From: Promethearchaeota archaeon | GTDB taxonomy: Archaea; Asgardarchaeota; Lokiarchaeia; Sigyniarchaeales; SOKP01 | Assembly: GCA_016840085.1 (NCBI GenBank) | Contig: JAEOTA010000018.1 | Coordinates: 1-64,000, forward strand | DNA length: 64,000 bases | Direction of reading: 5' to 3' | Part shown: piece by piece, positions 49,277-52,687 of the stretch | How the letters are laid out: each line of letters begins with the position of its first letter | Position numbering within the stretch: the first letter of the stretch is position 1 | Position numbers and translations under genes: made by a program | The notes under the pieces: generated by a model | Told to the model about the DNA's origin: nothing | Database searches by the model: none | What the model saw: the letters and a program-made list of their open reading frames with translations, nothing else

Positions 49277-49434
49277 TTTTTCAAACCACCAATATCTAAT
49301 TACCTTATGTAATTATTTATAAATTATAAATTTTATTAGTTCTGCTTCTTTCTTTGAATAACCTTGGTTTAATAAAAAACCATTTAAATCTTATATTCAT
49401 AATGTTAATAAAAACATGTTCAATTAGAATTCAA

Positions 49435-50352
49435 ATGTTCAAAGAGAAATTTAACGAAGGAATAATAAGTGCCAAGCAATTTGATAGGGAAGATATTGAA
49501 TATATCTTAAATAAAGGTAAAGAAATGATTCATATTAAAAATTCAAATCTTCTAAGGGGAAAAATTCTATCTACATTATTTTTCGAACCATCAACTCGTA
49601 CTCGTCTAAGTTTTGAATCTGCCATGTATAGACTAGGAGGTAATGTAATAGGCTTTCATTCTGGGAATGTGTCTTCTATTAAAAAGGGAGAAAGTATTGC
49701 AGATACAATTAGAACAGTAGAAAACTATAGTGATTGTATTGTGATCAGACATTCGCTAGAAGGCGCCGCTACAATGGCTGCTAAATTTGCAAAAGTTCCG
49801 ATAATCAATGCTGGATCTGGAAGTGGAGAGCATCCTACACAAGCATTATTAGACTTACTCACAATAAATGAGGAAGTTGGCTCACTAGATGGATTAAATA
49901 TAGGTTTAATGGGAGATCTTAAGTATGGCAGAACTGTACATTCTCTTTCGATTCTATTATCAAATTTTGATGTAAATATTTACTTCATAAGCCCCTTAGA
50001 ATTAACAATGAGAAATCGGGATAAAGATTTTTTACTCACCCGGCAGGTTAAATATAAGGAAATTACAAATTATCGTAAAATTTTGAACATATTAGATGTT
50101 CTATATATGACTAGGATCCAAAAGGAGAGATTCATTGATTTAGAGGAGTATGAAAAAGTTAAAGATTTCTATAATTTTAGAGAAGATGATCTTGAAGATA
50201 CAAAAGATAATTTTAGATTATTGCACCCTCTTCCGAGAATTACCGAAATTTCTCCTGAAGTAGATAATTCTGAGAAAGCTATTTATTTCAAACAAACATA
50301 CTACGGCATCCCTATGAGAAAAGCAATTTTGGCAGAGTTGATGACGGATTAA
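49435..50352 (+). CDS. pyrB: Aspartate carbamoyltransferase catalytic chain
   Basis: PyrB makes carbamoyl-aspartate in pyrimidine synthesis. Carbamoyl phosphate motif FEPSTRTRLSFE is near residue 50, HPTQALLDL near 130, and HPLPRI near 265. The frame can begin at TTG 49354 or ATG 49402, but ATG 49435 best matches the family's short N-terminus before the first helix (AKQFDREDIEYIL). The regulatory chain pyrI is not adjacent. Confidence 0.93.
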   Translation: MFKEKFNEGIISAKQFDREDIEYILNKGKEMIHIKNSNLLRGKILSTLFFEPSTRTRLSFESAMYRLGGNVIGFHSGNVSSIKKGESIADTIRTVENYSDCIVIRHSLEGAATMAAKFAKVPIINAGSGSGEHPTQALLDLLTINEEVGSLDGLNIGLMGDLKYGRTVHSLSILLSNFDVNIYFISPLELTMRNRDKDFLLTRQVKYKEITNYRKILNILDVLYMTRIQKERFIDLEEYEKVKDFYNFREDDLEDTKDNFRLLHPLPRITEISPEVDNSEKAIYFKQTYYGIPMRKAILAELMTD

Positions 50353-50386: not shown

Positions 50387-52372
50387 TTACACAGAATAAT
50401 TATTCAATGTAAACGCACTTATTTTTGAATCTATTAATTTGCTGAAGACTTTAGTTAATGAAATTTCATCAATATTGAAATGATTGTTAAAAACTATTCC
50501 ACCATTCAGTATTGTTTCGAATTTTTTGAATAGGACGATCTTCTTATCTAATGATAAGGGGGAATTTTTTCGAATAATTGTTGAAGAATATGATTTGATT
50601 TTTTCTTCATTTAGAGTTATTCCATTATACCATGAGTCTTTTAAATACATATCGTTGTGAGGTTGACTGAGAATATAATAATCATTATCCTTTTCATTAT
50701 TTTCATTAATAATTTGTCTTATAAGAGATAATATTTTTAAGGCGAATGATGTACTATTTTTAGTTCTATCAAGTTCTATTCCACAATGATTTAAAATTGC
50801 TTTATTTAAGCCGAAAAAACTAATTGATTTTACAGCCTGACTATATATTTCTTCTTCAGATTTCTCAAAAATCTGTGAGGTTAGGGAATTCCACTCCCTA
50901 ATAGATTTTAATTTCTTTCTTACCAGTGATTCTTTAAACTTAAATAATTCAAAAATAGAAACTAATTTTTCTTGTAATAATTCAAAAAATAAGTCGTCAT
51001 TGTGGTTTGATTCAACTGAAATCATATGTAAATTTATTAAAATCTTATCTAGTATAATCCTATTTTCTTTAGGATTCTCTATTTTAATTAAGGTCGAATT
51101 TAATAAATCAGAAGAAGTTTTATGATAAAATATTAAATTTTGTTCAAATAATTTTGAAAGATAGTTTTTAACAGAACTATTTTCTAAATCTGATTGAGCT
51201 ATTTTGGCATAATCAAACAATATTAAGGGTTTATTATGGATATTTTTTTGTTTAGTTAAGGAATTAAGAATATTATTATTAATTTTAAAATGAAGAGAAC
51301 TCTCATTAAATGAATCCGCGTTAGAACAAAATTCTAACGATAAATGAATTTTATTATCATCAAGAAAATTATTAAATCCAAACATTTGGAAGGCTAATAA
51401 GTCGAAAAAATATAATTTGTGTTCTGGTAGATCAAAATGTGAAAGAAATTGGTTGTTAAAATCACCTAATAAAAGATCTTCAGAAAAAAATTGTTTTAAT
51501 TGATATAAAAGATGGAAAAATTTAAGGAGTAGATATGAATAATCTCTACTTTTTTCTATTTTAGTAGGGAGAATAGAATTTTTCTTAAAAAGAAAAGACA
51601 TTAGATTTTTAGTATTTAGATACAAACTTAAGGGTCTTAGACTCCAGTAGTTCAAATTTAAAAGCGCAATCTCTCCTGTCAAGTATAAATCTGCTAGGTT
51701 TTTTGGAAGGAGATTTAAGAGTAAAAACTGCTCAGACACATCGGAACCCAATCTAGTAATAAAATTCTCAGGAGTGATCTTGGTAATGTTCGAATCAAAT
51801 AATTGAAATGCTTCGGATGGAGGTGTTCCTAATCGAGTAAGTTTATGTCTAACTTCTTCTAAACCATTTTCTAAAAGAATTGCATTAATATATTCACGCA
51901 TTAATGGTGCTGTCATATAATCTATATTAGTCTTTGAAAGACGTTCTTCTACTTCATGGACAATTTGTTTAGCTAAATAACGCTCTAGTTCACCCTCGTT
52001 TACTAAGTATTCTTCAATTTTCTTTATATCAAACTTTTCTTTAGAATATTTTGAAGTTCTAATCATTCTTACTTTGTTTTGATTAATAAGAATTTGCTCA
52101 ATCGATAAAATATTATTTAAAATTTGCTCTCCCAATAAAGATATTAAATATCCTTCTTCAGAGGATTGAATTAATTTGCTCCTTTTTAAGGTTTTTAAAT
52201 GGAAAGACAAATTAACAGAAGAAAGATTAATTCCTAAAACTTCCTTCTGAAGCTTTGAAAATGGGATTGGTATTTGAGTATTTTTTAATTTTTTTAAAAT
52301 GTCAATCCTAACCTTTTGGCCTAATGTTTTTAATTGTTTTTCTAAAAGGGTTTGGTTTTTGTCGGTATCCAC
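50387..52372 (-). CDS. Winged-helix/ATP-cone/NrdD-like fusion without glycyl-radical domain
   Basis: Residues 1-95 are an ArsR-like winged helix (IDILKKLKNTQIPIPFSKL, SSVNLSFHLKTLKRSKLI). Residues about 100-190 are an ATP-cone (VRMIRTSKYSKEKFDIKKIEEYL to KLTRLGTPPSEAF), the nucleotide-sensing domain of ribonucleotide reductases and NrdR. The rest follows anaerobic reductase NrdD in outline (LLPKNLADLYLTGEIALLN near 220, FFGLNKAILNHCGIELD near 540) but stops before the zinc site and glycyl-radical loop, with no RxxGY motif. It is probably a DNA-binding, nucleotide-responsive regulator built on an inactive reductase, by analogy with NrdR. Confidence 0.7.
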   Translation of the reverse strand: MDTDKNQTLLEKQLKTLGQKVRIDILKKLKNTQIPIPFSKLQKEVLGINLSSVNLSFHLKTLKRSKLIQSSEEGYLISLLGEQILNNILSIEQILINQNKVRMIRTSKYSKEKFDIKKIEEYLVNEGELERYLAKQIVHEVEERLSKTNIDYMTAPLMREYINAILLENGLEEVRHKLTRLGTPPSEAFQLFDSNITKITPENFITRLGSDVSEQFLLLNLLPKNLADLYLTGEIALLNLNYWSLRPLSLYLNTKNLMSFLFKKNSILPTKIEKSRDYSYLLLKFFHLLYQLKQFFSEDLLLGDFNNQFLSHFDLPEHKLYFFDLLAFQMFGFNNFLDDNKIHLSLEFCSNADSFNESSLHFKINNNILNSLTKQKNIHNKPLILFDYAKIAQSDLENSSVKNYLSKLFEQNLIFYHKTSSDLLNSTLIKIENPKENRIILDKILINLHMISVESNHNDDLFFELLQEKLVSIFELFKFKESLVRKKLKSIREWNSLTSQIFEKSEEEIYSQAVKSISFFGLNKAILNHCGIELDRTKNSTSFALKILSLIRQIINENNEKDNDYYILSQPHNDMYLKDSWYNGITLNEEKIKSYSSTIIRKNSPLSLDKKIVLFKKFETILNGGIVFNNHFNIDEISLTKVFSKLIDSKISAFTLNNYSV

Positions 52373-52687
52373 TTTTCTTTTTGAAATTATATTCTTTCTT
52401 TAAATATGCTTATCTAAATAATATGTTTAATAATTATATAAAAATTTAGGAATTTTCTAAATAGTCAATGATTTTAGATAATATGTGGGTGATATGAACC
52501 TTTCTTTTAAGAGATTAAACATTATAGTTAAATTATTTTCGTCAAAAAAATATTTAACTTCTAAATCTCATCTTTCCACATTATTGTAATTATAAAAATT
52601 GGACTCCTTTTTGATTAAATTTCTTTTTATGTATTAAAAAATTATAAAAATCATTTTTAAAATCTTTGATAAAAGCGTGAAGTTTAA
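52373..52687. other. Gene-free stretch
   Basis: AT-rich intergenic region between divergently transcribed genes. It presumably holds both promoters; several TATA-like runs are present, but none stands out. No small ORF, RNA or repeat is supported. Confidence 0.5.

Follow-up and report, generated by a model that had tools for sequence, protein, structure and literature searches.

A pyrB-linked winged-helix protein derived from anaerobic ribonucleotide reductase is a candidate nucleotide-sensing regulator in Asgard archaea and Bathyarchaeia

The window analyzed here is a stretch of 64,000 nucleotides from a Promethearchaeota archaeon (contig JAEOTA010000018.1). On its minus strand, a gene with a GTG start occupies 50387..52372 (stop codon at 50387-50389) and encodes a protein of 661 amino acids, which we refer to as the fusion protein; the plus strand of this interval is full of stops. 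The protein joins an ArsR/MarR/HxlR-like winged-helix domain (residues 1-99; 52076..52372, minus strand), assigned from DUF7347, a model of the N terminus, and VIA-align, to an ATP-cone (residues 100-184; 51821..52075, minus strand), which is its most conserved part by Pfam, alignment, and pN/pS, and to an NrdD-like barrel (residues 202-661; 50390..51769, minus strand), recognized by VIA-align to 8p27_A and by its catalytic columns. The original prediction placed a winged helix, an ATP-cone, and a truncated NrdD here; its coordinates were correct, the strand is minus, and both Pfam and the structural models agree with the three-part build.

In Pfam searches, the fusion protein matched DUF7347 at residues 14-87 (E = 1.3e-8), the ATP-cone at residues 103-174 (E = 2.3e-4; 22.1 bits, below the cut-off of 25.8), and NRDD at residues 442-648, above the cut-off (E = 3.5e-14). 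DUF7347 is by name a domain of unknown function; as modeled, this region is a winged helix. In two more distant members of the family, the NRDD match begins near residue 200 and runs almost to the C terminus (L078, E = 2.8e-78; L091, E = 2e-85), the ATP-cone of L078 lies over the cut-off (E = 2.5e-6), and both proteins also match the winged-helix and ATP-cone models of the fusion protein. Because these relatives score far higher on the same Pfam models, the domain assignment in the fusion protein is firmer than its own scores indicate. Against TIGR02487, the NrdD model (cut-off, 326), three of four winged-helix members scanned reached 284-302 bits and the fourth (L041) reached 29. The fusion protein did not match TIGR00244, the NrdR model, at E 1, and no phosphoribosyltransferase was among its Pfam matches at E 1. 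A PDB sequence search returned weak matches only; the best, to RNase III (E = 3.3e-4), was taken as chance, and the NrdD 8p23_A followed at 0.44. PADLOC gave a sole match, to Csa3 (residues 5-130, 3.2e-4).

We next turn to predicted structure. An AlphaFold2 model of the whole fusion protein, built from 73 sequences, reached a pLDDT of 78 and a pTM of 0.70, with much of barrel residues 269-432 poorly modeled. Its best PDB matches by Foldseek are anaerobic reductases (8p2c_A, E = 1.4e-14). With VIA-align, as the original prediction had called for a comparison with NrdD, model residues 202-658 superimpose on residues 123-675 of 8p27_A (Z of 26.0, rmsd of 3.4, 434 residues aligned). The glycyl-radical domain of the 8p27_A enzyme spans residues 676-739 (PMC11226230); the modeled barrel therefore ends just where that domain should begin, which bears out the claim that it stops before the zinc site and glycyl-radical loop. 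A separate model of residues 1-190 (pLDDT of 83.9, pTM of 0.59) matches MarR/ArsR/HxlR-type regulators over residues ~5-100 at Z scores of 11-13 in VIA-align. The winged helix filled that match list, which thus did not probe the ATP-cone of the model, and Foldseek returned no match to the model below E 0.001.

Alignment of 130 family members with 25 NrdD-type proteins (rows with X or of ≤600 amino acids left out) indicates that the barrel has lost catalysis. Neither catalytic cysteine column holds a cysteine in any of the 130 members, while the NrdD-type rows carry one at 24/25 in the first column and 23/25 in the second. The exceptions are a dead paralogue on contig C24 of the window's genome (L068), which lacks both, and L101, whose second cysteine lies one column off. 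A glycine occupies the glycyl-radical column in 14/130 members, in each case without the catalytic cysteines; the fusion protein itself ends before this loop. The four-cysteine zinc site is complete in 75/130 members, absent from the fusion protein, and lost in the window's own family (f1), and the NxN flap is absent from the fusion protein's barrel. As judged from these columns, the fusion protein cannot reduce ribonucleotides by the known route, just as originally claimed. We also considered an active reductase of an unusual kind and excluded it, both catalytic cysteines being gone in 130/130 members.

In a tree, one branch with a support of 100 separates 46 members from 20 NrdDs; this tree was made by a quick method from 66 rows and 651 columns, with the winged-helix columns removed, and L056 forms a long branch in it. 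Provided that the root lies among the NrdDs, the winged-helix fusion and the loss of catalysis would have happened once.

The window's genome encodes two further NrdD-like proteins. A complete NrdD that retains every cysteine and the glycine lies on the minus strand of contig C83 (L067, 4193-7753) and carries an intein of ~475 residues beside its first catalytic cysteine. The paralogue L068 (4120-5928, plus strand, contig C24) is 602 amino acids long, has no winged helix, and lacks both cysteines, the zinc site, and the glycine. The tree places it within the family's NrdDs, and its catalysis was therefore lost separately; a gene for a Gtr1/RagA-like GTPase adjoins it, and several relatives have similar frames of ~600-640 amino acids. 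A separate subunit supplying the glycyl radical and catalytic cysteines would have spoken against the original prediction; the genome's complete NrdD is self-sufficient, and its second NrdD-like gene is likewise without these parts. Elsewhere, L101 (5737-8028, plus strand) encodes an intact NrdD that has two ATP-cone stretches but lacks a winged helix; it groups with the NrdDs in the tree, and its residues 9-77 also match the NrdR model weakly.

The fusion gene is under purifying selection. Intact relatives of about equal length and 40-63% identity occur throughout the family, and the median pN/pS over 120 genus pairs is 0.39. Over the same pairs, the ATP-cone and linker show a pN/pS of 0.165 and 83.5% identity, the winged helix shows a pN/pS of 0.27, and the two barrel halves show values of 0.48 and 0.41. 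In a 73-row alignment, 19 of 28 invariant columns fall at residues 105-184, and R22, H58, Y75, and G81 are invariant in the winged helix. With the lowest pN/pS and the most invariant columns in the ATP-cone, the putative sensor is therefore the most tightly held part, followed by the DNA-binding domain. A pseudogene reading was ruled out by the purifying selection and the intact relatives.

Matches to the fusion protein at E 1e-5, which include plain NrdD or ATP-cone matches, occur in 85/97 genomes of the window's relatives. The family profile matches 130/227 genomes of the window's phylum at E 1e-40, true NrdDs included, and 72/250 sampled genomes of the bathyarchaeial phylum at E 1e-100 (G375 solely through an NrdD). 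A scan of one genome per species over 84,980 species returned 452 stretches encoding relatives, of which the best 80 were kept. These best 80 of 452 come from Jord-, Freya-, Hel-, Sigyn-, Baldr-, Odin-, and Njordarchaeota but mostly from Bathyarchaeota, with a few from Hecatellales, Culexmicrobium, and Thermoprotei; one among them, L101, is the plain NrdD without a winged helix described above.

The reductases of these genomes were surveyed alongside. Twenty-four of 28 genomes carrying the fusion gene match PF13597, one of them (G029) solely through the fusion gene. Four others with the fusion gene (G066, G070, G061, and G074) match neither PF13597 nor PF02867, and in G029 the fusion gene gave the sole match; the absence of PF13597 matches from the four means that the fusion gene is not confined to genomes with NrdD. 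We withdrew a description of these as genomes without any reductase: other ATP-cone frames, of 704-1666 amino acids, occur in six of seven genomes examined (G066, G070, G061, G074, G021, and G073; none in G029). Judging from L070, these frames are probably class II reductases. L070 (1915-5652, minus strand, contig C63 of the window's genome) encodes, by Pfam, a B12-dependent class II ribonucleotide reductase of 1245 amino acids with an intein; it matches RNR_Alpha (E = 4e-33) and the insertion domain (E = 4.1e-14) and matches PF02867 at only 2.8e-4, and its intein holds an HNH stretch. That PF02867 nearly misses such an enzyme is a trap for reductase surveys. The window's genome also encodes a lone ATP-cone protein of 138 amino acids (L069 858-1274, plus strand, contig C78), and similar small frames of 144-196 amino acids occur in the seven relatives examined, besides the control G034.

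The gene facing the fusion gene in the window is pyrB (49435..50352, plus strand), which encodes the catalytic chain of aspartate carbamoyltransferase (OTCace_N, E = 3.2e-47; OTCace, E = 1.1e-23; Pfam). Its open frame begins at 49354, the starts of relatives lie near 49435, and its motifs STRTRLSFESAM and HPTQALLD are presumably of the aspartate, not the ornithine, type. Aspartate carbamoyltransferase catalyzes the first committed reaction of pyrimidine biosynthesis. The two genes lie tail to tail with 34 bp between them, and this convergent arrangement within 100 bp holds in 43/43 loci of the window's own family (f1). Among 16 other Asgard loci, pyrB is convergent within 100 bp in 2, directly upstream on the same strand in 3, farther away in 4, and not seen in 7 (2 with little DNA downstream and 5 with at least 1.5 kb); the same-strand gaps are 0-3 bp (3, 3, and 0 bp among L042, L044, and L047). 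Among 74 scan loci from the best 80 of 452, pyrB is convergent within 100 bp in 27, farther away in 8, and not seen in 39 (14 with little DNA downstream and 25 with at least 1.5 kb). A ranking of neighbors free of prior choice over these 90 non-f1 loci (16 Asgard and 74 scan loci) placed pyrB at the top with 44, followed by pyrI with 22 and a methyltransferase gene with 13. Five loci that duplicate others (L078, L081, L096, L102, and L117) were removed before counting, and so were L010 and L158-L161. At L043, a masked stretch splits the fusion gene, and pyrB, tabled at a distance of 1002 bp, actually adjoins its second half.

Of 31 genomes tested, 30 of which carry the fusion gene, 26 encode PyrI, which usually regulates PyrB at the protein level; the fusion protein is therefore no replacement for PyrI. 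Intact nrdD is directly adjacent in 10/90 non-f1 loci. In nine of these, all from the scan (Bathyarchaeia), nrdD follows the fusion gene in the same orientation after 188-898 bp; in three of the 10, the fusion gene and nrdD are followed by a pyrB that faces both. A small glutaredoxin-like gene, identified by eye, occurs in five nrdD-holding loci (L047 1935-2198, L090, L105, L107, and L125) and possibly encodes the electron donor of the reductase.

Upstream of the fusion gene, genus conservation reveals a direct repeat, ATATCACC-CAC-ATATTATC (52477..52495, minus strand), that is a possible operator. It reads ATATCACCCACATATTATC, with an 11-bp period and the consensus ATATCACC-N3-ATATYAYC, and sits ~26 bp above a likely BRE/TATA element, CCTAAATTTTTATATAA (52434..52450, minus strand), assigned from sequence in the upstream alignment. 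The repeat is present with ≤2 mismatches in the 16 genus loci aligned (0 mismatches in the window) and as a variant upstream in most of the family's other genera; it was not found upstream of the fusion gene in L062-L066 or L073. Across 19 genus genomes, 14/14 zero-mismatch hits lie upstream of the fusion gene, one per genome. With one mismatch, the repeat occurs in 24 places beyond 15 own-gene sites, versus 17 for a reversed control pattern; most are therefore chance, and seven of the nine inspected (L214-L222) lie inside reading frames. The repeat recurs, in the opposite orientation and with ≤2 mismatches, upstream of 12/17 copies of a 103-amino-acid gene. This gene (L224-L241, e.g., G000:C24:25464-25772), which has no Pfam match, carries the repeat upstream in most of the genus. 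The regions inspected at pyrB, nrdD, and the class II reductase gene in the window's genus yielded no copy of the repeat. We likewise found no shared operator for the fusion gene, pyrB, and nrdD, whose promoters share only a TATA-like block (fusion gene versus nrdD, P = 0.02, which is this block; fusion gene versus pyrB, P = 0.19; pyrB versus nrdD, P = 0.38). These patterns make it plausible that the fusion protein regulates its own gene through the direct repeat; its regulation of pyrB, suggested by gene linkage, is putative.

The domain architecture, purifying selection, the loss of catalytic residues throughout the family, one split separating it from NrdD in the tree, a pyrB link found in both archaeal groups and in several gene arrangements, and a conserved repeat at its own promoter together support an NrdD-derived regulator, and we consider it very likely that the fusion protein is a catalytically dead, DNA-binding nucleotide sensor descended from NrdD. 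We lean toward the regulation of nucleotide supply, with pyrimidine synthesis central, as its main job. Our most specific proposal, that one ancient switch made once from a dead NrdD couples the deoxynucleotide/ATP state to pyrB/pyrI and, in some lineages, to nrdD, is tentative. Judging by its fold, the winged helix would bind DNA; the ATP-cone, given its strong conservation and the roles of ATP-cones elsewhere, would read ATP/dATP or a related adenine nucleotide; and the dead barrel may serve as a dimerization body, as in NrdD, and may also offer a second nucleotide pocket. Changes in the nucleotide state of the ATP-cone would then alter subunit packing and, through it, whether the winged helices hold DNA. 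The protein probably controls its own gene via the upstream repeat, would most likely tune pyrimidine supply at the aspartate carbamoyltransferase step (pyrB, pyrI), and may control nrdD too in some Bathyarchaeia. Several observations weigh against this picture. The repeat was not found in the upstream regions of pyrB and nrdD in the genus, and the commonest, convergent pyrB arrangement is no operon and has no common promoter. With at least 1.5 kb of DNA downstream, pyrB is still missing from 25/74 scan loci (from the best 80 of 452) and from 5/16 other Asgard loci, and a methyltransferase gene is near in 13/90 non-f1 loci. The repeat could also belong to another factor, given the similar sites upstream of the unrelated 103-amino-acid gene.

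The original prediction read the protein as a regulator derived from the enzyme that it may control. Its first half stands, in that the protein is a dead NrdD derivative with a DNA-binding fold; control of the reductase fared less well, as the recurring neighbor is pyrB. A strict NrdR analogue, sensing ATP/dATP and repressing ribonucleotide reductase genes as its main target, would combine an ATP-cone with a DNA-binding domain as NrdR does, and kinship with NrdD, the 10/90 loci with adjacent nrdD (which in nine follows in the same orientation after 188-898 bp), and the glutaredoxin-like gene at five of the nrdD-adjacent loci fit such a role. We nonetheless regard it as unlikely: no shared motif was found between the promoters of the fusion gene and nrdD in the genus, pyrB and not nrdD is the neighbor in all 43 same-family loci, and the fusion gene is kept in the four genomes without a PF13597 match, whose only suspected reductase is of class II.

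The fusion protein might instead act at the protein level, its dead barrel pairing with NrdD in a mixed dimer or with aspartate carbamoyltransferase and its winged helix making a protein contact. An NrdD of like fold is a dimer (PMC11226230); nrdD or pyrB adjoins the fusion gene in many loci, and the ATP-cone is the best-conserved part. This is quite unlikely in our judgment, since the winged helix is conserved in its own right (pN/pS of 0.27, with four invariant residues) and matches DNA-binding regulators, PyrI is already at hand in 26/31 genomes, and the fusion gene persists in genomes without an NrdD match. We give very little credence to a regulator of like build whose targets lie outside nucleotide metabolism, with the pyrB link reflecting inherited gene order without function. 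The repeat upstream of the 103-amino-acid gene, its absence at pyrB and nrdD, and the mostly convergent pyrB would suit such a regulator; against it, pyrB keeps its proximity in both Asgard archaea and Bathyarchaeia as the other neighbors vary, lies on the same strand after rearrangement in L042, L044, and L047, and often has pyrI close by. An NrdD-derived regulator of nucleotide supply remains our preferred reading.

We found no description of this family among the open papers of PubMed Central, the scope of our literature search. If the proposed switch is real, it would govern the DNA-precursor pathway at its two ends and would be a reductase pseudoenzyme acting on DNA; the family offers a clear case of an enzyme apparently turned sensor. 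The near-cut-off TIGR02487 scores also mean that similarity-based annotation may list such proteins among the reductases and skew surveys of reductase classes. NrdR is rare in archaea (PMC12176259), and the family in Asgard archaea and Bathyarchaeia is a testable candidate for matching gene expression to nucleotide supply there.

Among known systems, NrdR carries a zinc ribbon at its N terminus, joined to an ATP-cone, and recognizes NrdR boxes at the operons of reductases (PMC9110341 and PMC12176259), and the nucleotide state of its ATP-cones governs packing and DNA grip (PMC9110341). The fusion protein resembles NrdR in joining an ATP-cone to a DNA-binding domain and in its proposed reading of adenine nucleotides; unlike NrdR, it has a winged helix for the zinc ribbon, a large dead NrdD barrel, pyrB as a neighbor, and a different repeat. 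Bacillus PurR combines an N-terminal winged helix with an inactive phosphoribosyltransferase body as the effector domain (PMC8789054). The shared use of a winged helix and a repurposed, dead nucleotide enzyme is a likeness of logic, not homology: PurR has an unrelated enzyme fold, acts on the purine pathway, responds to PRPP and ppGpp, and has no ATP-cone. Having neither a zinc ribbon nor a phosphoribosyltransferase, the fusion protein is a member of neither the NrdR nor the PurR family. With class III NrdD, from which one branch separates it in the tree, it shares the ATP-cone and the barrel (Z of 26.0 to 8p27_A); it differs in lacking the catalytic cysteines, NxN flap, glycyl-radical loop, and zinc site and in carrying the extra winged helix. 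Finally, residues ~5-100 have the winged-helix fold of ArsR/MarR/HxlR-type regulators (Z of 11-13). Most of those regulators are small, with metals, redox, or small ligands as their signals, whereas in the fusion protein, sensing would be expected to reside in the ATP-cone.
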